Below are positions 583 through 22,100 of a stretch of DNA of 23,412 nucleotides, piece by piece (the first letter of the stretch is position 1; each line of letters starts with the position of its first letter). This DNA comes from Saccoglossus kowalevskii. Lineage: Eukaryota > Hemichordata > Enteropneusta > Harrimaniidae. Under the pieces are notes generated by a model, which had not been told where the DNA came from, made no database searches, and worked only from the letters and a program-made list of their open reading frames with translations. A program made the translations under genes and the position numbers. The DNA lies in assembly GCF_000003605.2 (NCBI RefSeq), contig NW_003108092.1, forward strand, positions 151,813 to 175,224, in the 5' to 3' direction.

Positions 583-1018
583 TCAGCAGAGTACTTTTGG
601 CCACAAAGTCGCTTGTTTTCTGTTTCCTGGAGAATAATCGGTGGAGCACCCCTGTGCAATTATTCCATTCTTAGAAGGTAAATTAACCTTAGCACAAGAG
701 GCACCATCCAATAGATCACTTCCTACTTTACCTCCAGCTGGAGGTGGGTGCTGAACCTGCTGAAAAAAAAACACTGGTTTCTTTTGGAGGTTCTCGCTCC
801 TGATTGACACTAGGTCAGTACTGACAGTGTAGTCTTGGGTTGGTGACTGCATACAACTGGGAAAGGTCAGCAGGTCTTCTCGTTGCTTTCAGTGATGAAT
901 TTGTGGCAGAAATGAAATTCGCGCAGGCATTGTCCGTAATCAAATCCATTGAAATGCCCACCACCAACTTGCCTTTCTTGCCCCCCTGCTGACCAAATTC
1001 ATCTTCCCCCCCCCTCAT
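583..1018 (-). other. Unassigned overlapping minus-strand open frames, possibly transposon debris
   Basis: Two overlapping minus-strand open frames (852 to 583 and 1018 to 815) lie in DNA that is less AT-rich than its surroundings and includes a C-rich tract near 1000-1015. Neither translation shows a domain I recognise. They lie just downstream, in the minus direction, of the retroelement-like fragment at 1168-1497 and may be decayed pieces of the same insertion. They could also be remnants of a host gene. The frames break in several places, so an intact gene is unlikely. Confidence 0.25.
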
Positions 1019-1167
1019 TAAAAAAACATCGCATTTTCAGTTATTGATAGCACACGGCCGCCCACATTTAGCAGATGTTATTTCCCCCAATGCGTTTTTT
1101 TATTATACCCTGCCCTAAAGGCTGTTTTTCCCACCCTGCGATATTTGTTTATGCCTACTGGGCGTAC

Positions 1168-1497
1168 TCATATTTCCCGACCCCTACAAAAATAGCAAAA
1201 ATCTCCTGCCCTCAACAAAAATCCCTTGGAACAGCTTTTCCGATGAACAGCTCCATTGGCTGCACCTGCGTAAATAAGTGCTGACCTAAGCAGTTTTTCT
1301 ACCTGATGTCGAGAACCCGCCATAGCAGACTTATAATTGGCAACATGGGCTGGTTGGGATCTACTTTCTGGTGAAACGATATGAAACCCATCACGAATCC
1401 CCTCCATCAAGAATTCTTTGTCTGGGTCATTCTTAAGCTTAGATTCCCATTTCGAAAATGTTAAGGCAGATGAAAAGGCAGGGGGAGATATTGACAC
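1168..1497 (-). pseudogene. Decayed retroelement polymerase fragment (DIRS/YR-type-like N-terminal RT region)
   Basis: The minus-strand translation begins with a Trp, then Leu, then an Asp-Pro-Asp-Lys-Glu-Phe run, a Gly-Ile-Arg-Asp-Gly-Phe-His-Ile run and, later, Asn-Tyr-Lys-Ser-Ala. That spacing (W...L..hPD..F...I..GI..GF.I......N..SA) is characteristic of the region just before reverse transcriptase in tyrosine-recombinase retroelements such as DIRS and Ngaro, and in related polyproteins. After about 70 residues the resemblance fades and the frame ends. I find no RT catalytic motif, RNase H or recombinase, so this is a short relic. The family name comes from remembered consensus, not a search. 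Confidence 0.45.
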
Positions 1498-1539
1498 AGG
1501 ACTATCTAGTTTCTATGCAAATATGAGAGTACATTTCAA

Positions 1540-1940
1540 TTAAAGAACTGAAGATATCATTAGAGAATGAACAATATGAAAATTATCAAAGCAATCGGAC
1601 TTTCTGTTTTTAACAAGAATTCGAAAATATCACTTTATACCAAAAATTACAAAAATATTCACTAAAATTAGAGAATTAAAGATATAATGAAATGAACAAA
1701 TCTGAGAGAGGTCCACATGTAGTATCAAAGCAATTGGACTTGCGATTTTTAACAAGAAGTCGAAAATATCACTTTTTACCAACAATTACAAAAATATTCA
1801 CTAAAATTAGAGATATCATCACGAAATTAACAAATTTGAGAGAGGTTCACATGTAGTATCTATATATGTAATATCAAAGCAATTGAACTTGTGTTTTTTA
1901 ACAAGAAGTCGAAAATATCACTTTTTACCAAAATTACAAC
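1540..1940. repeat. Tandem array of ~140 bp units, about three copies
   Basis: The phrase TATCAAAGCAAT recurs at about 1584, 1723 and 1872, each followed by a matching stretch containing TTTTTAACAAGAA, TCGAAAATATCACTTT, an ACCA...ATTACAA segment and, in the first two copies, AAAATATTCACTAAAATTAGAGA. Periods are about 139 and 149 bp. The longer spacing is explained by an extra TATATATGTA-like insert before copy 3. A degraded part-copy lies just before copy 1. Units differ by scattered substitutions, so the array is not recent. No coding potential. Confidence 0.85.
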
Positions 1941-2234
1941 GGGAAGGTGAATTTGAAACAAAATCAGACGATTACATAAATTAAGACTGAATAGAGCGTC
2001 GAGAAACTAAAACATGTCTGTTATGTGAATGTTCATTTCAAACACGTATTACCAACACCCGTGATAATATTAATATCTCTGATATAAAAAAAAACAATCT
2101 TCGTCAGAGAGGGCTAAGCATTTGTTAATCCCCAGAGCTATATTCCAATATAGATTAGAAATTTGAAATTTGAAACATGAATAACTACTTCTCAGCATTG
2201 AAATAAATATATCTATACAATAGTTAATACTTAC
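1941..2234. other. AT-rich spacer, nothing recognised
   Basis: AT-rich sequence between the tandem array and the possible minus-strand exon. If that exon is real, this is the start of its intron. Confidence 0.4.
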
Positions 2235-3449: not shown

Positions 3450-6400
3450 AAATGGCGACAAAGTAAAACATTGGTATGCTAGTTGTTTTCGGCGTTTCGA
3501 CTGTTTCGGGTTTGAACCATTGTTTACCCGTGCTGGAAACGGGAATTACTCCCTTTTGAGGGTATCATAATAAGCGAGGATGAAACCTTGTTTATGCTAT
3601 GAAAATGTGAAGATTTTTAACGTACTTTATGTACTTTAGTTCGAAGTAATTTTTTGTTTGATTGCCCAACGCTTTTAGGTTTATGTGCTTTAAGTAAGAG
3701 TGCACATACCTAAGCGGCCGTCCCTCTGCAAATGATTTAGCTCAGCCATTTTCCGTGACAAAATCGCGAAACTATCCGTTTTTACGCAATTTAGGGAATC
3801 CGAATTACTAAACGAAGTACAGGACGACGAGGCTGAAATATCCAATACTCAACACATACTAACAATTATATCTCAAAAGTAAATATTCGTGGTATATTTT
3901 AAATATAACCGGACCGGAAGTGGGAATTTGTTATTTGTTGAGTCATAGTTGACTGGCTGATTTGACTGGTTTGGGACAAGTTACCATGTTTATTATATGA
4001 AGTCTTGGCCAAGTGTCAACGTTCCCAACATAAATGAGTTTTAGATTGTGACGATAGATCTTGAAAACTGTTATTTGTGTACCCAATATTATACGTCTGC
4101 AATGCACCTAATTTCAATTTAGTTATCACTTATTTCGTATGCTAATAATAGTTTTATTGTTAGATTAATGTAACATTGTTTTTATTGAGCTGTATCGACC
4201 ACTCATTAGTACATAGCATTTTTGGTTTTGATCGGCTTTATTTAGTCTTGCGTAGTCGAATTACGATTTGGACTGCGTTACGCAAGAGAATGGAATTTGT
4301 ATTTTTGTGTATTGTTGATAATACAAGAAATAAACAATTGGTTCGTTGCATTTAATTGTATGTAATCGCACGACTGAGGATTGAGTAGCAGGACGAACGT
4401 ATTTTAGAAGGAGCCTGGTGACATTGGATTTTATGGCTGTTGCAACTAATAAACCCATAAAACATCTCATCTAACACATTTATGCAAATTAAGATACGCT
4501 AATAACATTCCTGATGTACACACTCGCATGCAGATGTGTCCCATATGTTTTCAAATTGGTAAACTATAGCTTAATTAATAGAAATTGACAATAAATAAAT
4601 ATTGATATACTGAAATGTATTCGTACAAGAGGACTCGAATGCAAAGTGCAAAGTGAACAGTATATATATATATATGCCATGAAAACACTCGTCTCCGATA
4701 TAATGGTTCCCCAGCCGTACATCACGCCGATTGGTTACGAGGGCTGTTCAAGCTGAGAATAAAATAATATTTGTAATTATTCTGGTATTAGTTCGACAAT
4801 TTCCTCAATTCTTTGAGAATTCTCTCAAACATGAGATGCAAGCTTTCACGATGCAAAGACGATGCGAGGTACTCCGTGGTATTCAAATGTGAACCTCAAT
4901 TTGGAATTGCGTGTATTTTTTCTAGATTAAAAATACTAAGGACATACACATACACATGTTGTTTTAGTGATCTGAGAGGTACTGGCAGGTTAGCTATTAT
5001 GTACTCTCAGACCCAAGGATTTAGATTTCAGTTATACACTAAAGACACGTTCACAGATAGTAGACAGTATTTTAAACATGTGTTTTGTTTGCTTTGTTTG
5101 CACTTAATTGTAGAATCATTGTTTTTAAATATCTAAAATCAGATTCTTTTTTTTTCCATTCAAAAGAACTGTACTTAAACAGTAGTTGCAGACTTTTATT
5201 TTCAGTGTAACCATAAACATGAAAGGAAGATCACCCCTGATTGCTGCAACCGTTAAATAAAAACAAACATTTACATTCAAATTTATTGAAAATAATCCTG
5301 GCTTATATAAACGAATATTTGATTAGAATTAAATTTCGAAAAACAAATGTACGGAAAATAAAATACCTACTTCCAAAAGTTTCTTGTTCATGGAAACGGA
5401 CAATTTGGGCAAAATAAAACAGTCTAAAACTTGCCGGGCTTAATTTGTTTCTGTGTACGGCTTTTTGTAACGCATGGATTATGACAGACATACTCTAATC
5501 GATTATTAGTCATACAGTGTCAAGTAGTAATGAAATGATAACATTTGAGCAAAAGCAGTATTTTCATTATGCCAGGCAAACCCAAACAAGTGGTCAATCG
5601 AAATGAAAACCAAACATCAATAGCTCGGATTCAATGTGAATACCACGCAGATATTTTATCACATACCATTCCGATTGATTCCTAAAATTTCTCGATGAAT
5701 ATTCATAGGTAGTGAAGTAAATAGAGTGTAGCGTTTCCTCTATGATTAATACCATCAAAATCTTGTTTACAGGGCGATATGTATCTGATCCGATGTAGTA
5801 TTGGGTAACGTCAAAGTACAGGCCGTGTACCTTGAATGAATTGTTATATATATCGTGATACTGTACTGGTTAAACTATATTGCCCGTAATGGATATGGAG
5901 ACTGAATAAAACAATAATTTTTCATGCAGTAAAGAAGTAGATACTGTGGGGAATACACTAAATAATTAGTTTTTAATTATATTATTCCCGATAGATTAAT
6001 AAACATTTAACTATAGCGTTGCGTATATTGCAAGAAACTCGGGTGTAGGATTTTACTAATGACTTGGAATAAATTTATCATGGAACAAACCAAACCCTAC
6101 AAGAAACATTTGTTTTCATGATTGGATGCTTTGCTGACAGCTGTGTCATTCTGTCTTACTTCCATATTTGCAAGATAATACTTTACGAAACATCATATCA
6201 TGTATTAGTATAATAGTTCAGCAATTAACTAAATACGCCCTCATTTGCTCAAGATCTTATAAAATTATAGCGATGTTGGTACTGTGAGATGAATGAACGA
6301 CCAGAAAGGACTTTAAACGCATAGCCCCTCCGATAGTAGAAACATTACTAAAGTTACATGATTAATACATTTTTTATTACCAGTATGTTATGAGTTATAA

Positions 6401-6670
6401 CAGACAGAAATAAATAAGACGTACATATGCTCTCAAGAGCAGTATAAATATTTTGTATTATGTATCCGACTCAAATTCATGATTAGTACTACTAAAGGTT
6501 AACCATTCTCCATAACTCTGTGGGGGAGATGGGAGATTGTAGACCCTGATAAAAAAATCTACATTTCTAAACAAAAACATTACAAGAACATAATCTTGAT
6601 AAAAAACATTGTCTTAAGAATAAATAAAATAAAACATTAATTTGCACAATCATATCGTCTCTCCCCCTAG
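3450..6670. other. Long intergenic region upstream of the channel gene
   Basis: About 3.2 kb of AT-rich DNA. It contains a (TA)7 microsatellite at 4661-4675. The open frames at 4813-5136 (+), 4261-4470 (-) and 5303-5491 (-) have no recognisable domain, no convincing splice context and low-complexity composition, and I treat them as chance. Any promoter and 5' UTR exon of the channel gene should lie here, but TATA-like words are too common in such AT-rich sequence to single one out. Confidence 0.5.
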
Positions 6671-6744
6671 TCTCAAATGGTCGACTCCTAATAATAGTGG
6701 AAGTGAAAGCTACTTCGGCACTTGTGTGAACATCACTGAGACCA
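6661..6744 (+). promoter_or_regulatory. Probable 5' UTR splice acceptor and 5' UTR
   Basis: A strong pyrimidine tract ending in CTCCCCCTAG (AG at 6669-6670) precedes the first coding exon. This suggests that the start codon lies in a second exon and that a non-coding first exon sits further upstream. The leader from 6671 contains an in-frame TGA at 6727-6729, which makes ATG 6745 the first usable start in this frame. The start context is GAGACCAATGG. Confidence 0.55.
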
Positions 6745-7198
6745 ATGGAGCTGAGTGAGAGTTCTGCTTATTACGGCGATGGACGTCCTCCCAGAAGCAT
6801 TTCTACGTCACCCTTTGATCCGCGTGACAGTATGCAAGATGATAACGTTCACGTTGACACGTGTTGTTCGATATTGTTGAAGTTCGCTGACACGACAACA
6901 GCGCACGGAGTAAGCAGAGTCACTAATGCTAGCTCCATTGTTGCCAGGGTTTTTTGGACCATTATTTTGTTGACAGTATCAGTAGTGTATATATGGCAAG
7001 CTATTGAATTAATTCAACTGTATTTCGAGTACCCAACAAGTATATCAACCGCTATCGTCGAATCAAAAGCACAACGTTTTCCGGCTGTTACGATCTGCAA
7101 TACTAATAAGGTACGATGGAGTGCGATAGACGCCAGTGGGTATGGAAAACTCACGGAAATGCTAAATGAGGAGGTGTTTCTACGTAACACATATACAG
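6745..7198 (+). CDS. Exon 1: N-terminus, HG motif, TM1, post-TM1 motif
   Basis: Encodes residues 1-151 plus one base. The start is fixed by the upstream in-frame stop. Residues 42-58 ([19 protein letters not shown] region) hold His54-Gly55, the conserved DEG/ENaC gating pair. TM1 is about residues 68-90 ([19 protein letters not shown]). Residues 112-119 read FPAVTICN, the family motif just outside TM1. The N-terminal tail has a Ser/Pro-rich stretch ([14 protein letters not shown]) that could be phosphorylated, which is inference. The exon ends CAG then GTAGGA, phase 1. It is the only exon in the window with a membrane segment. Confidence 0.96.
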
Positions 7199-10100
7199 GT
7201 AGGAACACAGAGTAATGAATGTAGTTGTGTGTTATTACTATTCGTTTTAATAATTACATTTAATACAACAACTTATTGTTAATATTATAAGAACAACATT
7301 TGAATACAATGGTGCCAACATAAGATTTGAACAAACGTGTTACAACCAGCCTGAAAAACACAGCGAATCGGAACAACATAAGTGATTTGTCAAACATGTT
7401 TTTTATAATAACACTTATTGTATAATTAATGTTTTGGATTGGATTGATGAAAGCAGCTATCACCATTAGGGGGTAGAGAAAGTGTTGTAAAAAAACCATC
7501 GCAGATAATATATTATATTAATTACATTTATGTGGCACACACAGGTAACATCACCACTCAGCTGCTTAACATCCTTGTTAAAACACTGTATTATGATTAT
7601 GCTATTTACTAACCGGACACACAATTATTATTTAATCATTCATGGCGCTTTAATAGTACAATACTTTAAATGAGTGAACACTGCTCTGGTTGAGTAAGTT
7701 CTGATTGTGGTAATTGTGTATCCCCGATATCAGCCTATTGTTTGTGGCGTCATTGAAAATAAATGTCGACTTCAAATCATGTATATATATAAATCTTTTC
7801 AATGAATTTAAAATTTCTCAAAATAAAAAAAAGATCAAGTACCGTATATATGACTAAACTAAATTAGAACAAACATAATCCATACATAACATGAAGCCTT
7901 AATAGAAGTGTAACATACGAAACATTTACATTTTGCCATGCGTATATTGTATTTATTTACATGTGTGTATATATATCGAACACCGCCTCAATGGGCTTAT
8001 ATTTATATGTAAGAAAATTAGTTTATTTTATACATATTAAATAGTGACTCTCAAACGAGTGTAGTTTGACAGTTTGTGTCTTTGGGCGAGCTATTTGATT
8101 TTTTTCTTCCTTACTGTTCATATAAACGAACGAATGATTTCGGGAAAACAATGCAATCATCCATTTTTCTAAGAAAATTAAAATTTTGTTCCATATTTAA
8201 AAATATCGATCTGGTAGATTAGAAATAAAGGTTTATTTCAGTCATATGACTAACCAGAGAAATAAAAGTAAGCATAGAGTCATACAGTGAGGTCACTTTA
8301 ATCTAGAAAGTTAACGAAGTGTTAGTAAAAGACTGAACATATCCTGCTCCACGTGTAGCACATCCTTCTACGGCACAATTAAAATCAGAAGCAGCAAAAT
8401 CTTTAAATTGTAACTGAGTATCTTTTCTAAAAATGCGCGAATGCACTATGTACCTAATTTTGACAATCGTTATTAAATCTGATTTGAGGAAGGTTTTGGG
8501 TAAACATTAAGCTGTTGATGTTTCTTGTAATATAAGTCACAGACAGTTATTGGATAGAATGCCATTATAGTGACAATATAGGATAATTACAAATTTAATT
8601 ATGTATTAACATTTTAGAAACGGAAATAATTAGAATTTTACATCTGAATTTCAAAGAAATGTGTGTCATTAAATTATTGATTACCAGCCGTACTCTTATG
8701 GCTGCTTGAAAGCGTGAATGTTTAATAATTAACCTGATTATAGTGAAATGTCTTGCTCCTCAACAAATATAAATATTTTAGAGTTATGGACACTTCACCT
8801 CTATATTGTACATGAATCGCGGTATAGAGGTTTTTGTAGTTGTTTTCAAAGTAATTTATATTTAAATAGCGTTATACTACGACAGTAGCGAAGAATACAT
8901 TTATCAGTGTCACATTCATGCAATGAAAATGTTCTCGAACAAACCATGACCGCATATTATCTATTAATTGAGGTATTCTAATATGTTTTATTGACGTTTT
9001 ATTCCATTGAATTATAGTCATTCGTTTCCATAATGTTTGTTTGTATGAACACTAGAATGTCTAAATTGATTTCTTTTTAGCTCCATGTGCTGATGGTGAT
9101 TATCAATGCAGATATATGGATTTGTGCTTAAAACCGTCCCATATATGCGATGGTATAATCCATTGTTTTGATGGTGTCGGTGAAGACGAATTTAACTGTG
9201 AACTTCGAAGTGAGACATTATTTTCTTTGAATTATTTAGCATATTTCAAAACACGTCTTCTTTAAACCACATAGTTAAGCATCATTACCAATAGTACTCA
9301 ATGAAGTTTTATTTTAATTGGTACTGATTTATGCTAAGAGTATTTAATAAATTCGACTCGGTTCTAGCAGATATATCGTTATATAAATGTCAACCAGACA
9401 TAGAGTCGTCACCTGCGCATGCGTCAGATGGCCATAGCGTATCATTGTTTACAAACATGCCTTTGGGTTTTTAGTGTGCTTGGGACTCAATTCCGTTCAT
9501 GCGCAGGTGACGACCCTCCCGCTTTAAAGCGCCAGTGCTCACAATGCGACATATATAACGCGTGAATGTGAACAAACGCTGCGTGATGACTGGTACGCTG
9601 TAATTACGCTACATATGCGGTCTTTGTAAACATATTTAAACAACGTTTTTTGCCAATAATCGGAGAAAAGATTTATTTACATTTGGAATGTCTCACATAT
9701 GTTACTCAAAGTATCAGCTGCTGAACAAAATACCTACAAATTTGTAGTAAAACATGTTGACTAAAATAGGTAGATAAATCCTTTTATTTTGTCCATAGTA
9801 CAATGCAATGAGAATGAGTTCACTTGCAAAATGCCTGGCAAGTACGGGAAGTGTTTATCCGAATCCTTAATGTGTGATGGTGTGCCTCATTGTAGAAGTG
9901 GAGAAGATGAATTCGACTGTGGGAGCCGTAAGTACGAATTAATGACAACACTACAATATATGTAAATGACCGCCGAGATCTCGTTGAGTGCGAGAGCTGA
10001 GAGACTAGCTTTTGGCATAAATTAGTGTTCCATTCTCTCCTACCATAAATTAGTCTACTGTTTTTTTTAGATCGCGTCCACTGTTTTACTGACATGCGTA

Positions 10101-13100
10101 GCTAAGGTATTTTGAACAACAGTCCATACACAATTGTCCAATAACAATCTGTTATATAAGCGAATTATATAGCTATACCATTAAAGTCAGTGTCGTAATA
10201 ATATAAAGTTTTAAACTTAGGCTTTCCAACATTAAATTACAATATTCCCATATTGAGTTCGTAGATAGTACACGGTGGGGGGGGGGGGGGCTCACCACCT
10301 TAAATGACGAACACAAGAAGTGTATGTAATATAAATGCATCATACACTCAATGATAAATTACTAATAATATATAATAATTGGCATATTTTTTATTAACGC
10401 TGCGGTTACACTTTATTTTAGTGACTTGTCTGTGTTGTCTTAATGCCTGTTGTTTATTTATTTGCAGAATGCAATGGAGATCGTACTTTGTGTGTCATGT
10501 GACTCCCGATGGTCATGCGAGAGATTGGTGTCTTCGCAATGACATGGTATGCGACACTGTCGTAGACTGTGTCGACCCCTTTGACGAAGCTGATTGTTGT
10601 ATGTACAAATATTAAACTATAAGCCTCGTTCTTCGCCTCAACTAATTGCAGTTCGTTATACCATGACTTAAAGTACGACAATGCCGACCCCCCCAAAAAT
10701 ACCCAAATTGATATGATTAAAGTATGAACTGTCTAGAAAATGTCGTTTACCAGATCAAATTTGGGCCATTTTCGAAAACGGCTAAAAACTCTAATCTAAT
10801 TTGCTTTGTTATCTAATGTCACTGTTATGTTTTGTCATAAAATGTACATTTCTTAATCTGCAAATATGTGGCAACTAATCATACTTCGTACATTTCATAA
10901 ATCTTCCATGTGCAACCAATCACTGTATCGAGTTTTCTCATCAACGCTACTGACATTTCAGCATACACCACTGCGATAAAGACTTTTCGTTTCGACATTG
11001 TGAAATTCTTTCATTTCATGCAGAAAATACAGTATTGTTCGTGCATGAGTTGGTTTGGAATTTCATTCATCTTCTATTAGTCATAATTCAAGACAAATAA
11101 ATGGCATCGAGAATATAGCAAATTATCTTTTTTCTGTAATATTCTTGTGTAATTATGGAAATTATTTATGGATGCATAGGGAATACATTCCATTACGAGT
11201 TATTCTTAATAAATTTCTGAATTATCTTGTCTTGTTTATTTCAGGATTTTTTCTCCCCCAAAAACGAAAGAATTTCACGATGTCGAAAACGGGAAGTCTT
11301 TATCGTAGAGTTATACTCCTAAATGATGTATATTTGTTTTTTATGGCAGACGATAAACAACCAGGGTTATATGACGAATATTCAAATTCGGGATTTCTAC
11401 TTGAAGAAGGACAGGTCGTCAGTAATCTTACAGTAAATAACTTAGCGGAATGCAAAATGAGTTGTGACGTCACTCGTGAATGTTTTACTGCCGTCTTCCA
11501 CGATATCTCACGGCAATGCGTAATGTTACATTACCCGGGGTATTACTGGACTGACGAAATAAATTCTACCGTGATTTCTGCATTTACAAAACGTAAGAAC
11601 AATATGAATCTATGCACGTGCATTGCTACTAGCTGGTATTATATTTAATATCATAATAATTCTCGTCACGGTTTTCCCTGATTGGAGAATGTTTTGATTT
11701 AAGGTAGAGATGCAGTTTACCTGACAGATATTTTAATTAGTTACTAGGAAACTAAGATGACCTCCCTTGTCCACAAAACTATATATTTTCGGAAAGCTTA
11801 TTGTATGAATTTAAAAATTTTGTTAGTATTTTTTGTGCACACTGTAGTTTGAAATATGCACAAAAATGTGCTTTTTTGGTCAAAAGTGATTTAAAACAAA
11901 TTTGCTTCTAAACCATGCTTCTGTTTCCTGTCAAAATTGGTTTATGGGTACATCTGTTTACTATGAAGAAAGTGCCGTCTTGAAAACTGTCTACCAGTTG
12001 TCAATTTTGCAGGGCAGTAGCTCAAATTTCACTACTTTATGCATAAATTAACACCCAGGCTAGTTGTCTGTACGATTGTTGTAACACTGTTCAACCAAAA
12101 ACAATGCCCCGACGGCGTTTTAAAGATAAACACATTGTTAATCATTTATGAAAGTTTCAAAACAAAAGGTCAAAGCGTCTAGGAGCTATTTTTTTAAAGT
12201 TCTGGGATGTGCACTAAAAAGAAGCTGAGATAATTGCTAATTTGCATAACAATTCACTCAGTAAGAAGTTTGCTAATGCTCATAATTAAAATGGCTGTTA
12301 CAGTTCCAAATTTAAATGTATTATAGTTTTGTTAAAAGTTAAATATAGTGCATAATATGGAAATCCCGTCATTTCTTTTTTTCACCATGTTACTTTTTTA
12401 TTATTTATGTAAAGCCTTGCTAAATCTTGCTAAGCATTCAAAAGAGAGAATGTTTGCACCTGTTATGTATATTTTAAAATCGTTTTTTGAGTATGTTCCA
12501 CTATTCACAATTCTACAAAATTTTAACAGTCTATAGCCAAGACTGTTTGGATGATAAAAAGCAAAAAGAAAATTATGTTAACTTCATGACATAACACTGA
12601 AACATAATATATGTTGTTATTATTGTATTTTATAGCTTTGTGTAATGGGTTTGAATGTCATAATGCCTCGGAAGGTAAATTCTGTTTTCCAAGAAAGTAT
12701 GTTTGTGATCACGATGCTGACTGTTCGGACGGATCGGATGAATTTTTCTGTGATTACAGTGAGTTTGTCATCGTAATATCTATATATATAATATACTACA
12801 AATTGGATAATCACGTGACACCAAATATGCACACGACATCAAAAAAGTTATCTATTCGTCCTGCAATTAGGTGTTTTACCGAATAGCTTTTCACTAATGA
12901 ACACCATCATTACCTGTACCATCTACCCCCGCTCCCTTCAATAATGATATATAATCTTCATTTAAAGGTCAATTGAGTTCTTTAACCTGTACCTGAACAT
13001 CTCGTGGTAGTTGGCTTGAAATGCAAAGTGACTCTATACGACAGTATATAAAACAACACTGATTTTAATGTCTGGCTTATATACCATTATCCTGCGTATT

Positions 13101-16100
13101 GTACGAATGAATGTAACTATTTTATTGGTTGAATTATCAATGAGTTCCAATCACACGAGGTGACAGTTGGTATTCGAAAGATCGAGCCTGTTATTGTAGT
13201 GTAACGTACCCCATTTAGGTAGATTTGGGTCCAGCCACAACGCTCGACATTATCTGAATATTTATTTCAAAGGAGACTTATATAATTTAATATATTCAGT
13301 TGCGAAAAACAAATTCTTGGTGGGGGTTGTATCAAATCAGAACACGTGAAGAAGTATCCTGCATAAAATAACGTTGGCCTTTATTTCAAATACAGCAAAC
13401 TATTCTATACCTGTGTTGTTATCATCCGCATCTGCTGGTCGATGTGTACTTTTTTTGAATGTTTGAATTTTGAACACGCCTTCAAAATGTACCCATGGTA
13501 ACCGGCCGAGGTCCTTTAAAAAATCTAATCGAATTTTCTCTCAAAATATAAACGATTGGTTCTTTTGTCTGGAGCAGTCTAATAACTTTTATTTTTATTT
13601 GTGGGCTAAAATAGATAAAGAGATAACCGTAGTAGATATTTTCAAATCAACGATAAGTTGTAACATGTTTTTCGTTTGAAACTCGGTATGTCTCATTTTG
13701 GCATTTATATGGTTTAATACAGATGTATGACCTTATATGACAACAAGGTCCAGATGTAATTGTGTCAACCCATTCTAAAATGTCATGCACAGTTGTCCAC
13801 AATTAATAGCACAATGCCATAATTATACAAATCCGATGAAACTTGAACCAGATATGGATCGATGAACTTGTGTGTGTTAGTTAATTCAAAAATATAAAAA
13901 ATATAACGCTCCCAGATAAAAGAGCTCTACAAATGCAGGAGAATGGGATTTTCATTTTTATAACTATTCCACAGTATATGTAACCACCTTCTTGATTCTT
14001 TAGCAATGAATCATAGCATCTGTTATGACAAAATTGTTGAAATTATTAACAATAACTTCTAAAGCAGGATTTCAAATTGACTGAAAGTTTAGAAAATAAT
14101 GGCATACTGGTGACAACTATACATATAAATAGTTATCATGACAACAAAAATAAAAATAAAAATATTAATTTTTAAAATTGTTTACCAAATTATTCATATA
14201 TTTTATATACTTCATCGATTAGAGTAGCTCATACAGATTTTTTTATTCAACATTCTTATTTTCATTTTAAGTATATACACACAGTAATATTCACACTGAA
14301 AATATGAACTAATTAGCAAAAAAATTCTGAAGTTATGAAATAAATCATTCTCTCATATTTGTTTGTACCAGATATTGTAATTCCATAATTTGCCCACAAT
14401 CCCTAGCTAGAAAATCAAAATGGCGGACTACTTAGATAGTTTGATAGTTATAGAACGAAAAGCTGTTAATTGCATTCCATGCATTTGTGGAGCTCTCTCA
14501 TCTGAGATAATATGCTGTTAGTCTAGACAATTTTGTTATCTATTTAATATGGCCAACTCATAGAAATTTGTTTATACTTTTTTGCAACAATTTTTTGGTG
14601 ATTTTTTGGACCGATTTAAAATTTGTGCACAATGCTATTTAAAAAAAAAATGATTCAAGATCACATTCAAATCACCAGCCAATTTACTGTGTATCATTTT
14701 AACAGACATACAATGATCAAATATGTTTATATACCGTTTTTGGTTTTGTAACCTGGACGAATTTGGCTGACTTAGCCATTTAGCTATTAAAAATCTTAAA
14801 TTATCTTGTAGATGGCCTACTGGGCGCCATTATGTTGTTTTTTTTCAAATATATTTTGTATCAAACTCATATCCCGAAATCTTTATTTTCGTTTAATATC
14901 AAGTGATTTTATATAATACAAATTATTGTGTTGAGGAGTAAATGCTTTGCTTTTGAAGTTATTGTGACTGCAATAAGAAAATTGCATTGTTATGGACAAG
15001 ACTGCGAAATGAACAACACTATTGTAATCAGAACCCTAAAGACGATACAATGAAAATCCCATTACGGTGAAGTTACATGTGCACATAAATCAAATTACTG
15101 GCTAATATCAAAAGAGAACGCAATAGACGCTTTACAAATTGTTATTAATATTGGTATCACTGTATCGACAAAGGAAAAACAAGTCACAAAATTTGCATAC
15201 CCTTATCTTAAAAGTCTTTGGTATTATGTATTTTAGGAGATTGTTTTGACAATGAATTTGAATGTGATGACAAAAGGTGTATCAGTGAGTATGACGTGTG
15301 TAATGGTGAAATGGATTGTTATGATTCGACAGATGAAGAAAACTGTACAGGTATATACTTATATATAATTTATGCTACATTGTGTAGTATATTTCACATA
15401 TACTTCTATTCATATATTCATGTATAAGATGTTGTGCAACTAGTGTAATATGCGGTGAAGTCAGACAAAAAGAAAATCGTAGATCTCAAGCTGTTTTTGC
15501 ATCCGTTCTCGCAAAACGTTTATTACGTTATATTATATATTTTTCTTTTTGAATACCTCGCTCATTTAATGGCGTTCACTGTATTTTGTACATACCCATA
15601 TATGCAATGCTATATGCTATGATCCTGTTAACTGTCTCAAAGAGTGTAATTCTGATATATGTCAAACTTATGATATGATCTTGATATAATATAATATGAA
15701 CGCGAGTTTATTTTTAAAATGATCACAAACTTGGAAATTGAATAAGTAAGTAGTGTTAAACTTTAATTGTTTTTTTTCAGAAGTGACAACGCTTTTACAG
15801 AGATTCCAAAATAACTATTATTCGATTCATGAGAGAAGTTACGTCAACCTCTCCAGAATTATCTCTAATCGCACTTTATTGACAGATTTCCAATCAAATT
15901 ACTTAAGAGACAATGGTTTTCAATATGTTCGTTCAGAAGATCCTCCAGACTGGAGAAACTTTTTTTCGTTTAGCTCTTCCAGAATGGAAATGCGGCGGGT
16001 TTTAAAATTGAAGAGGAATGAAGTTCAATATTTTGGACATCAATTAAATGACCTAGTTCTCGAGTGTTCGTTTAGTGAAAATGAATGTAACAACAGGTAC

Positions 16101-19100
16101 AACTGACATTTATATACATTTTGCGTGTGAACATCAGTCTGGAGAATATCATTTTCACATATTATCTATCCCTGATCAATTGAACTGGATCGAATTTTCA
16201 CTTTTGTTTTCACTGACACGGCTTACTGATATGTCTGCTTCGTCATTGCCATTTAATGGCACCATTAAACTCAGGTAGTTTTTCACTGGGGCGAAAATGG
16301 TGGCCATTTAACTACACATTTAGAAAAAAATTACATGCAATGTGGAGAGGAATGCCAAACCATAACACTTGCATGACAAATTTATTTTTCTTAACATTAT
16401 TTAAAAGTTTAAAATGACAACGTTTCCCGGCATTCTGTTCAGTCTTGTATTTTGCGTTTAGTACATTATTAAATTCTGCTTCATTTTCACATGGCTTTGA
16501 CAGTATTTTCCTGTTTCCCGACAAATCTTATAATTTGGTTTTAAAATGTAATTATATTAATTTCAGCGATTTCTACCAATTTCAACATGATAACTATGGC
16601 AACTGTTATACGTTCAATAATGGTATCAATCAGACAGACTTGATGACATCTACAAGAACTGGCTTTAACTATGGTGAGTCAAAACTAAAAATAAGAAAAT
16701 AAGTACAATATGCGATGACGTTGTTTTAATAAAGTTAAAGAAGCACGTGTAAATTGGATCTTAAACATCTATAGTTGTTAATGTTTATATGTGATGTTAT
16801 TATATTTAATATGCTCCATCAGAGTGCATAGATGCATAGGCTTACCTCTACCTTACTAGAATGAGCATAAATAACTGATGTCATACCTTCAGTGTGAATG
16901 TAGTTCTATATTTGTAGCAGTAATAATATAAACATATTTCACTGTTATTTTACCCCATGTGGAGCAAAAACTAGTAATAGTATAATTGCAATTATTTTAC
17001 CAGTAACTAAGATGTAACTAAGCTAATATATGTTTCCATAAAGCTGATATACAGGAGGATATGATCAACCATTTTTCGTGTCAGTATTAATACGATTAAG
17101 CTACGGGTAAATTTGTGCATCATTAGCTTGAAAAATGTCATGTTTAACAATCACTATAGTTACTAATACGTTTTCGTAAAATGCCTTTTTTTCATATTTG
17201 ACTGTAAATAAACGGCTAATTTATTGTTCAATGTATTCCATAGCGGTTATACCATATACATGTACACGTATCTGATCTACAATGAATGTTATTTTGTAAA
17301 AAAAATTGGAGACTAACAAACTAAAAAAATTTATCGACAGATAATGCTAACTTGAACATCGACAGATAACAAACAAGTATTGGCAAAACACAAAACAAAT
17401 TGTAACAAGGGGTGGAAAGAGTTCTTTTGTATCTCACCCCTTATCCTAAAAAAATCGTAAACTTTCATGAAAAATAATTACATCTCAAATAATATTTCTC
17501 CTGTTTATAATTAGCACATGGCCAACAGACCTCGACCAATCAGCGTCACGAGAAAGTGTGGTTCTATTTCAATGTAACATAATGTACTAAAATGTTATTT
17601 CACAAGTTTGATTGCTGTCAAAATGTCATCATTTGATTGGCTAATATGAATCTTTCTCAGGCTGATTGACCAGTGCTAAGTCGGTTAGATCACGCCCCTC
17701 GGTGACTGTGAGAATTAGGACGAGGGCCGTGAACTAACCTATATTTATAATGTCTAATTAAAATATCATTCATGCCATTCATTTGATCACACGATAATTT
17801 TTTGAGTAGGTTTAACATGTTCTGTACAAACAATCCTGACAATTGCGTCATACATTTTAATGAAAACAAATAATGAAAAAAAAAACTTTATATATTTCGA
17901 TGAACTACGCCGTCTGCGCTGGTTCGCTCGCGCGATCAACACATTTTCAAAAATAATCAAAGACACGCAAAATTAACATTGAAATAATATGAAAGCAATG
18001 ATACTGTCGAAGGCGGTTATACCACAAGATGTTCACTTCATATATGCTCTCCCCTGCGGCTCGTTTACATGTCGTAAATTGTGCTATATCTCGCCTTTGG
18101 CGGGAGGGGGAGTATTGAATAAAAATATCACATAATCGGATTTTTGCCCCATTTTCCACATAATATGATTGAATAATGTGTTCTTGTTTTTCATTTTTCC
18201 GATAGGTTTGAAACTGTTATTGTTTTTGGAACAGGGTGAATATATTGATCTATATGGCCAAACTGTTGGAGTTCGGGTTTTGATTCATCCACAGGAAGAG
18301 ACGCCATTGCCGGAGGATAATGGCATCACTATTAGACCAGGGGTAGCAACATCCATTGGCATTCAAAAGGTAATTCCATTATAGTCAGTTTAGGATTCTG
18401 TCGACGTCTTACTCCTCTATCATGATTTTTAAGGAAATATTTTGTTGCCTATAGGCAAGTGTGACAAGTACATTTTGATTAAACATTAAGATGGCTAATC
18501 AGAAATAACAAAACATTGAATCTATTTCCGATTGGTAGAAGGTTTGCATTTTTTTAAACACTATGTCAATAAATAATTATTATTCGGGTTATTTAACAAT
18601 GAAATCTGTATTGTCAACATTCTTTTCATTGTCACAGTATTCCAGCTTGCCGAACCTGTCCACACTTGCCTTTTCAACATTTTACATTTCTATATCAAAT
18701 AAAATGGTATACATTTTTCAGAGTCTGGCCAATTGAATAATAAATGTAAAATTATGTACAGACGAGTTTATTACTGATTTTTTTCAGAATGTGTCTACAT
18801 TATTATTATAGCAGAGATCACGTCCGTCATAATTTCTGTTTTCTATTGCTCAGGTTCAAAGAGAAATTCTTGGTGGAAAATATGGAAATTGTACAGAAAG
18901 AACTAACTTTAATGAAGCTAATATGTATGGAGAATATTATCAATATTCCTCTCTGGTCAGTATCAACCAATTTGAAGTAGCAATAGGGGTAGCAATAGGG
19001 GTAGCGGGTAGCAATAGGGGTAGCAATAGGGGTAGCGGGTAGCAATAGGGGTAGCAATAGGGGTAGCAATAGGGGTAGCGGGTAGCAATAGGGGTAGCGG

Positions 19101-22100
19101 GTAGCAATAGGGGTAGCAATAGGGGTAGCGGGTAGCAATAGGGGTAGCGGGTAGCAATAGGGGTAGCAATAGGGGTAGCAATAGGGGTAGCGGGTAACAA
19201 TAGGGGTAGCAATAGGGGTAGCAATAGGAGTAAAATGTGTTAAAAACTGAACCATGATTCAGACATTTTCTAAAAGTTACTGATCGTGCTAATATAACTT
19301 ATACTTCACCTGAAAGCTTAGATATAGGCGAATATGGTAGCGCATATGCCATACCAATGTTTGTAGGGATAAACTGTCAGCCAATTGCGCCATTATGCTA
19401 TTTTATTATACTAACAAATGAAAAGACCGTTTTATAACCCTTTTGTAACACTGTAGGCTAGATAAAAGCCTTCGTTTTCTAGCAACAACCAAATAACTAC
19501 AGACAACAGATTGTTGGTAGCATGTCTGTAGCTATTTGTTCGTAGATATTTGACAAGATTTTGCTTTCAAACGTATAAACGTATTTCACCAACACTTTAT
19601 TATTATACACATATCTGAACGCGCCATAAGCCTTCACATTGTTTATCATTATTAGTGGAACGAATTTCAAGTGAGAGAATAACATTTGACATGTTATTTA
19701 GCTACTGTGAATATCATGAATAAGTGTTGTATCGGCTACTCTATAGCCACGATGGGACGAATCCGAACCTGAGTAACGGCAATGCCCACTGGTGTTTGTA
19801 GTGAAAAAACACTAATCCTATATTGTGTAAAACCATCAACATCTTTTAGATATTTCGATACTCAACCATGATGTTAAAAGTTCAATCAGCTTTCATGGAC
19901 CAATCACATTGCCAGGATTTGTTATAACACAGTTACTGTATTGAGATATAGAAAATTATTGCATTGTATTTCTTCTTATCACTTGGAAAAAATATGCACA
20001 TATCTGCTTCAGTGAAGAGGTTTATTCTTTGGCAGAATTTAATCAACTGTAAATTGAAAATGATTGCGTGTAATAATAGAATTCAAGGCAATGTCGATTA
20101 GTGATTTTTAAAGGTATTGGGTATTTAATTCCGTGTAACGGATTAGAGGGATTTTACTCTGATTTGTCATTAATACAAATGATAATAAGTGATACCACAT
20201 GGTAATTCTTTGACGTAACCGATTCGTGGTAGATATAACAGCAAGTAGTTGTGGTTATTCGGTGTCGCACAAACTACAATGATATGTTTTGAGATTACAG
20301 GCCTGTCAGAAGACTTGTTTACAACTCAATATGCTAAGTCATTGTGGATGTGTTGATTCACTAGTTGTGGATGCGCCCCAATGCGAGCTGCTAAACAAAA
20401 CACAAGGTATGTGCATACTAGTAATTTCCTCCATGGTGGTTAAATACATGTGTGTGGTCAATTTTAAGTGCAGAGTTGAATACGTAAACGTTTACCATAA
20501 CAACCAACTGAAATGACGTAATATACAATCCACGTAGTTTACAAAAATTGTATTTTCACTGGGATTTTGTCAAATGTGCGTGTTGTTTATTATATCACTT
20601 ACATTGTATTCCTCTCCAAAGGATACAATTACATTTACTTGTTTGTGGTGTCCGAGATATTATGTTCGGTTACGTAAGCTACATTCAGGCTCATTCGAAG
20701 GTACTTCACAATGCTTATCTAAATTTAAAACAAATTTCGCATGTCTTCGTTGTTCACGATTCTTTAGATGCATGCAGGCAGTTGATGTATTATTTTTACC
20801 TGAAAAACCTTCTACCATGTTCCTGTCCCCGCCGCTGTAGGTAAGCCTTACATTTGTTAGGAATACAAAACTAGTGGCCACAAATTTGAAGTAAATTATG
20901 CAGTTAGCTCTACAATGTAAAACTGTATAAACAGTTTCGTTTGGAAAAATTCAATAGGAAACTTACATTCAGAAAATTCAATTATGTATATAATATGGTA
21001 CATTGTAATATGTAATATAATATGTACACGAATCGAACAACGCGTAATTCTGCATATGTTGCCAAATGTATATTTCATTATTTGTAGGACAACAAAGTAT
21101 ACATCAAAGCTATCACAAGCCACGTGGCCTTCCGGTAAATCACTGGTAGGTACACATCCACTCTCCCTTGCAGAGTCTTCTTGGCCTAGGGAGCCACAGA
21201 GAGCTGCAACTCGTGGGACGTTCCCTGGCGACTACCTAGCTTAGTGATAAAAGACCCATAGTCTCTGCGACGGAGAATGGTACACATCCAGACTTGTCAT
21301 ACTACATTTCGTAGTGTCAGTGTTGGTCAATTATAAGCAGTTATAAAAGCTTTACCTCGGAAATAACATCACGTAAACGTAAATCATTTAACGAGTTTAA
21401 AAGCTTTTTATTCCTGTACATCAGTTTCCACCACAAGCGTTAACATACTGTTGATTGTAAGAAAAATGCAACAACATCGAATGATATTAACTGCAATTAT
21501 TTTAGAGATTTTTAAGGATAAATCGCGCCACATCGAAAATGTATAAATACAGTATACTCTTTAAGAAAGTGAATTCAAAGTAATGCACTTCATACTCAAT
21601 CTGGTAGCCATAGTAACATCGGTTCTGTATAACAATGCAAGACAAATATATCGTTCGCTCCTTTGTGTGCATGCAATATGAATTGATGTTATGTACAAAT
21701 AACTGAAAGCGCATGCGCATTTATGTAAATCAAATGAATACTATTATTTCTGCATTTATTTGTTTGACCCTCATTTAACACGTCTTAAACAATCATAATA
21801 TCATCAGGAATACTTTTTAAAAGTCAGCAACACGATAGGTCCAGCTCGATGGTCGTATGCTAGTAGGGCGGTGGCTCTTTACAATGATCGATACATTCTA
21901 AAGTCTCTGACACGAACCCCGCTTTTTGAATCGCACAAGACAATTACATATTCTTAACATTAAAATAATTATAGACACTATTGAAATTATTATTAGCATA
22001 TGATGTCACCACTGGGTTTGTCATTCTAAATGGTCTATGAACTTGTTATTGAGATATTACTCAGGATTTCAAATAACTCATGAAATATCATCTCTTAGTA

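Follow-up and report, generated by a model that had tools for sequence, protein, structure and literature searches.

A probable DEG/ENaC channel gene of Saccoglossus kowalevskii with LDL-A and putative PAN modules in the finger loop

DEG/ENaC channels respond to acid, peptides, proteases or force by opening, and their finger, at its outer corner, is involved in several of these responses. Does a member of this family carry receptor-type extracellular modules in the hemichordate Saccoglossus kowalevskii, and if so, where in the channel do they sit? The question is raised by a stretch of 23,412 nucleotides (NCBI RefSeq assembly GCF_000003605.2, contig NW_003108092.1, positions 151,813 to 175,224, forward strand; the window hereafter), in which an initial annotation made from the letters alone had placed a DEG/ENaC channel bearing LDL-A and PAN modules. 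In the 572 Mb assembly that we searched, the window corresponds to C262:151813-175224. Our analysis points, with good probability, to a gene for a DEG/ENaC subunit in which the loop joining finger helices alpha1 and alpha2 bears a mosaic array of modules (LDL-A, probably PAN, LDL-A), the gene being one of a large group in this animal.

Splice-site placement puts the gene on the plus strand over at least positions 6745-22888 of the window; the extent originally assigned to it, 6745..15350, was too short. Fourteen exons (1-3 and 5-15, with exon 4 omitted) join into a single stop-free frame of 732 codons with canonical GT/AG at their ends. For exons 14 and 15, the frame-keeping sites were taken among close alternatives, another choice giving two stops. 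Exon 1 ends in phase 1, and exons 2, 3, 5, 6 and 7 are phase 1-1 exons with lengths divisible by three. Scanned against Pfam, the joined protein matches ASC (PF00858, expect value (E) 1.5e-64, residues 445-731) and LDL-A (PF00057, E 8.8e-17, four stretches at E <= 1). Taken together with two relatives of the same layout, described below, the occurrence of both families in one protein gives good support to the annotated combination of a DEG/ENaC channel with an extracellular insertion of LDL-A modules.

The HG and FPAV motifs of exon 1 align with ENaC, ASIC and FaNaC1 and provide the N-terminal features of the DEG/ENaC family; the best match of this exon in the PDB is FaNaC1 (8on7, 57.8 bits). 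The palm, beta-ball and cysteine-rich thumb are present, as judged from the ASC match and from alignments with ENaC subunits. The channel core finds its best PDB match in ENaC-alpha (160.5 bits), with ASIC1 and FaNaC1 also matching. Against the subfamily models, the protein scored 238.6 bits for ENaC (TIGR00859, curated cut-off 428; the query lacks the second transmembrane segment, TM2) and 195.6 bits for degenerins (TIGR00867, curated cut-off 598). By profile, the window protein is a DEG/ENaC member that reaches neither of the two subfamily cut-offs. Scans for tRNA genes and Rfam families gave no matches, and the joined protein had no relatives in the viral contigs.

Where, then, does the array enter the channel? 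It had been described as lying directly after the first transmembrane segment (TM1). Alignments with ENaC, ASIC and FaNaC1 shift it about 60 residues onward, past finger helix alpha1: between TM1 and the junction lie FPAVTICN and some 30 further native residues. In the ASIC1 alignment, the residues ahead of the junction match AGELLALLNNRYEI (query 133-146), a stretch that we take to be finger helix alpha1. The alignment with human ENaC-alpha reaches residue 171 and restarts at 275, with the junction opposite residue 165 or so, in a part where confidence in the alignment is only moderate. Noreng et al. (PMC6197857) describe stretches between alpha1 and alpha2 that occur in ENaC alone, for which they use the name GRIP domain. 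Since the alignments place the junction after alpha1, and GRIP lies between alpha1 and alpha2, the array by alignment occupies the alpha1-alpha2 loop, the GRIP position of ENaC. According to the FaNaC1 structure paper (PMC11026163), the outer corner of the finger is important for gating across the superfamily, and the same corner holds modulatory ion and protease sites of ENaC, proposed matrix-tethering sites and the peptide pocket of FaNaC1. As an insertion site, the loop tells more than a placement directly after TM1 would.

The array had been given as five LDL-A modules and one PAN module, all six clear by cysteine spacing, PAN less firmly so. Four LDL-A modules stand, with intact six-cysteine exons (2, 3, 6 and 7). 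When exons were scanned singly, 3, 6 and 7 passed the Pfam cut-off for LDL-A; exon 2 missed it, as did exon 4 in its second half. A six-cysteine pattern with DE occurs five times in the window, once in a reading of exon 4 begun upstream of its acceptor, compared to none in 100 Markov-random windows; a looser cysteine pattern without DE is present in 6 of the 100. No sixth LDL-A module was found in the window by cysteine pattern. As the DE-containing pattern was absent from the random windows, and a uniform pattern had no antisense match in the sequence around related genes (below), we rejected a chance origin of the LDL-A patterns.

The third module, encoded by exon 4, cannot be read through with obvious splice sites. 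The incoming frame covers its first two cysteines, and the third to sixth lie in another frame. Acceptor 10422 would open a 177-nucleotide (nt) phase 1-1 exon with five cysteines beyond the LDL-A number and an unusual first spacing, and skipping exon 4 preserves the reading frame. Three readings remain: an interruption in the assembly or allele, a skipped cassette exon, or use of acceptor 10422. In the third module of a related locus, L015 (sense position 5404), the first cysteine stands 6 nt from the acceptor, as in many modules here; this speaks for acceptor 10468 with an interruption without settling the matter. Exon 5 is probably, if weakly, a PAN module. A PDB search with this exon returned nothing but three nearly identical chains labelled 'Kelch domain-containing protein' (E 0.055), and a genome search found only the exon itself below E 1, the search being insensitive, since PAN modules visible to Pfam in locus L022 also went unreported. 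The annotated order of three LDL-A, one PAN and two LDL-A modules requires that the third module be made, which the assembly does not show.

Is this gene a singular case? An ASC profile search of the assembly gave 217 candidates, of which 93 were scored. Thirty-three matches start at profile position 1-5 and represent TM1 exons, one of them that of the window; we examined the best 20 of the other 32, with 6.9-10 kb of downstream sequence per locus, the remaining 12 lying outside the sample. LDL-A patterns were present downstream on the sense strand at 16 of these 20. A single uniform pattern recovered 79 LDL-A modules in sense and 0 in antisense orientation over 169,349 readable bases, and looser patterns gave one antisense match, in L028. 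The uniform pattern found none in ASC loci L001-L008, none at the end of L010 that can be read, and none elsewhere in the window than in its array. When phase 1-1 exons alone were sought, 83 of 84 modules, with the window included, could be placed in one. An any-phase tally over the 20 loci gave phase 1 at 70 of 75 acceptors and at 66 of 70 donors; of the 79 modules, 4 had no acceptor and 9 no donor that passed the filter. In this group, arrays of phase 1-1 exons probably occupy a single phase-1 intron in the channel gene, the pattern expected of exon shuffling.

Two loci on contig C4507 have the layout of the window. Like that of the window, their exon 1 ends in phase 1 shortly past the part that matches alpha1, and in both the exons join without a stop through five LDL-A modules, a ShK module (38.8 and 36.0 bits; Pfam cut-off 20.9) and another LDL-A module into exons resembling window exons 8, 9 and 10 (642 and 652 residues). 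Joins into the core cover these two loci, from exon 1 to the exon-10-like exon; the other loci are known as exons downstream of TM1. With sense LDL-A modules downstream of 16 of the 20 other TM1 exons examined, and with two relatives joined into the core, the window gene is not a one-off, and the view that DEG/ENaC subunits lack LDL-A and PAN modules fails in this genome.

The arrays differ in composition. L013, one of the two joined relatives, has six LDL-A modules by Pfam, five of them above cut-off, and carries a TM2 with GVS. In L022, LDL-A exons are followed by four PAN modules above the Pfam cut-off and then by further LDL-A exons. L015 has, downstream of its TM1 exon, LDL-A exons, a CUB domain, a TSP1 module of the ADAMTS type and half of another CUB domain (non-LDL-A part, 5655-8905); the Pfam scores are 28.5 and 20.1 bits for the first and second CUB halves (cut-off 21.4), 34.3 for TSP1 (cut-off 23.8) and 34.0 for the other CUB half. 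L029 has LDL-A exons and then exon-9- and exon-10-like matches within one 10-kb stretch. L016 and L017, on different contigs, share nearly identical LDL-A modules, one identical and one with a single residue differing; they are either recent duplicates or two haplotypes, the latter lowering the gene count. Contig C3473 holds five ASC matches in about 86 kb (L002-L006), each unbroken from about profile position 15-21 to 217-233, L003 with two stops; because the profile match runs on in one stretch, these loci are without a module insert at that site. Among 14 control genomes, the ASC search passed its cut-off in one, Thermotoga maritima, a surprise for a family of animal channels and probably due to chance.

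Modules of the relatives are maintained by selection. At the first shared module position, the proportion of nonsynonymous differences (pN) was lower than that of synonymous differences (pS) in 36 of 36 pairs from nine relatives (median pN/pS 0.31), and at the second in 21 of 21 pairs from seven relatives (median 0.15). The values come from our own Nei-Gojobori script, with pairs that are not independent and with the modules of the window, L013 and L021 outside the test. At the level of coding sequence, this shows purifying selection on the relatives' modules.

The exons are listed in Table 1. Exon 8 alone matched no Pfam family, found one Fab chain in the PDB (E 0.79) and had no relatives in phage records. 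A 31-nt minisatellite of about 8 copies (window 18977-19232) begins 22 nt past the exon 11 donor. Upstream of the gene, window 586-1512 contains three overlapping minus-strand open reading frames (73-114 amino acids) with no Pfam match, and 91-nt direct repeats lie at window 1584-1962. Elsewhere in the assembly, L038 (contig C4830) is mitochondrial COX1, with a 529-codon frame that has no AGA/AGG and in which ATA stands for Met and AAA for Lys at conserved sites; these codon readings argue against an echinoderm.

Table 1 Exons of the window gene, with positions in the window and the evidence for each
Exon	Position	Strand	Content and evidence
1	6745-7198	+	HG motif N-terminus, TM1, FPAVTICN, finger helix alpha1; ends phase 1; Pfam ASC 4.6e-21; PDB matches FaNaC1, ASIC, ENaC
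2	9081-9209	+	LDL-A module 1, phase 1-1; six cysteines; Pfam 20.0 bits, below cut-off 24.1
3	9799-9927	+	LDL-A module 2, phase 1-1; Pfam 8.2e-8, above cut-off
4	10468-10598	+	LDL-A module 3, interrupted frame; 131 nt; alternative acceptor 10422; Pfam score of its second half 20.3 bits, short of the cut-off
5	11350-11592	+	Probable PAN, phase 1-1; PAN_1 20.5 bits, cut-off 21.4
6	12636-12758	+	LDL-A module 4, phase 1-1; Pfam 2.1e-8; aligns with LDL-A of LRP2, LDLR
7	15237-15350	+	LDL-A module 5, phase 1-1; Pfam 1.2e-8; aligns with LDL-A of LRP2, LDLR
8	15781-16096	+	Remaining finger and start of next palm strand; ASC alignment of joined protein begins inside; tblastn matches in two relatives
9	16567-16673	+	Channel core; joined protein against ENaC, ASIC
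10	18206-18369	+	Channel core; Pfam ASC 2.3e-8
11	18854-18955	+	Channel core; joined-frame and PDB alignment
12	20301-20406	+	Cysteine-rich thumb region; ASC 0.0047 alone, below cut-off; PDB alignment
13	20768-20840	+	Thumb region; joined-frame and PDB alignment
14	21088-21149	+	SQATWPS region; alternative donor 21134; joined-frame and PDB alignment
15	22815-22888	+	Last palm strand ahead of TM2; joined-frame and PDB alignment

Several observations weigh against a complete channel with the array as described. Exon 4 read from acceptor 10468 hits a stop after 11 residues. For the window gene, TM2 cannot be read in the assembly: no TM2 with its GxS filter motif was found inside the window, and beyond it the assembly is N. 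For the PAN module, the profile stays sub-threshold in exon 5 (Table 1), the scan of the joined protein that returned PF00858 and PF00057 did not return PF00024 at E <= 1, and a single-sequence fold of the exon was poor (predicted local distance difference test, pLDDT, 40.7). Among the relatives, no LDL-A was seen at 4 of 20 loci, namely L012 (1077 N), L030 (924 N), L014 (5117 of 9990 N) and L023 (6690 of 9996 N), the last two being more than half N; module-free members do exist, as L012 and L030 have core-exon matches without LDL-A in the stretch read. In the relatives, exons were joined at whichever splice sites of the required phase lay nearest, and the model of the window gene is known from genomic DNA alone. 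This last point is also what favours the idea of two unrelated genes or a misassembly, with an LDL-A/PAN gene nested in a channel-gene intron. Every junction of the joined frame is in phase 1, and same-strand arrays follow TM1 exons at 16 of 20 other places, never antisense. We rejected this highly improbable explanation in view of the like layout at many loci and the two relatives joined through their modules into the core.

It is unlikely, if less remote, that a family of mosaic channels is real but that its member in the window is a pseudogene or a damaged allele and yields no complete channel. The interrupted frame of exon 4 and the unseen TM2 would fit such a copy, as would the exon 4 DNA, which occurs once in the assembly, a search for an intact second copy having found none. 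Against this, the other 14 exons hold one open frame with proper ends, and an assembly error, a cassette exon or acceptor 10422 would equally give a single interruption. A rival with a better, though still minority, chance accepts the channel but not a role of the array in gating: the modules would serve as an adhesive or localising tether, or in trafficking or clustering, and the channel would be a constitutive leak or be opened by another stimulus. LDL-A, PAN, CUB, TSP1 and ShK modules are frequent in adhesive and matrix proteins. In C. elegans, correct localisation of MEC-4 is reported to need matrix components (PMC10148893). Speaking for an influence on gating are the position of the array, in the finger region linked to gating in ENaC and FaNaC1, and the insertion site that the two joined relatives have in common.

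We therefore return to the DEG/ENaC subunit with a finger-loop array and to how it might work. LDL-A modules have a calcium-centred fold and bind proteins or lipoproteins, and PAN modules bind proteins or glycans. The array would bind an extracellular partner, such as a secreted protein, matrix, a lipoprotein or a glycan, and binding or tension would shift alpha1 and alpha2, and hence the thumb and the gate. The finger region moved would be the one where proteolysis of ENaC and FMRFamide act in related channels. A tethered, force-gated form is an equally open alternative to ligand binding. Array-controlled gating of either kind has somewhat less than an even chance. More tentatively, the alpha1-alpha2 loop may be a general docking site in this lineage, with at least five module classes (LDL-A, PAN, ShK, CUB, TSP1) shuffled in via one phase-1 intron to give probably more than 12 receptor-channels, each array converting binding or tension directly to ion current. 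The group would show an ion-channel family diversifying through exon shuffling, and receptor arrays on the finger corner would supply natural test pieces for how an outside ligand or pull opens these channels.

How do these genes compare with known systems? The LDL-A pairs of LRP2, VLDLR and LDLR align with exons 6-7; in the LDLR/LRP receptors, such modules sit on endocytic receptors and not on an ion channel. A literature search with the terms LDL-A, PAN, CUB and EGF showed, among the titles and abstract beginnings listed, no report of LDL-A, PAN, ShK, CUB or TSP1 modules in DEG/ENaC channels, and words starting with 'LDL' number 0 in the available main texts of PMC10507113, PMC9822975, PMC10148893, PMC9234716, PMC10424705, PMC9949801 and PMC11750451. 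Unremarked protein predictions with this architecture may well exist in animal databases. DEG/ENaC channels with added extracellular modules are known already from the EGAS proteins of C. elegans, described as ion channels with EGF and ASC domains whose currents were no higher than control (PMC10424705). Their modules are EGF rather than LDL-A, PAN, ShK, CUB or TSP1, and the Pfam scan of the window's joined protein gave no match to an EGF family. FaNaC1, the FMRFamide-gated channel that best matches exon 1, builds its ligand pocket from the finger helices (PMC11026163), but its ligand is a short peptide, and the available part of that paper mentions no module array. ENaC (6wth, 6bqn) likewise carries an insert between alpha1 and alpha2, the GRIP domain, which is a beta-strand domain with protease sites and is cut by furin or prostasin, whereas the window insert, compared with GRIP by position, is built of LDL-A and probable PAN modules. 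By this analogy, the window protein may be likened to a receptor-channel with its regulatory insert at the GRIP position.

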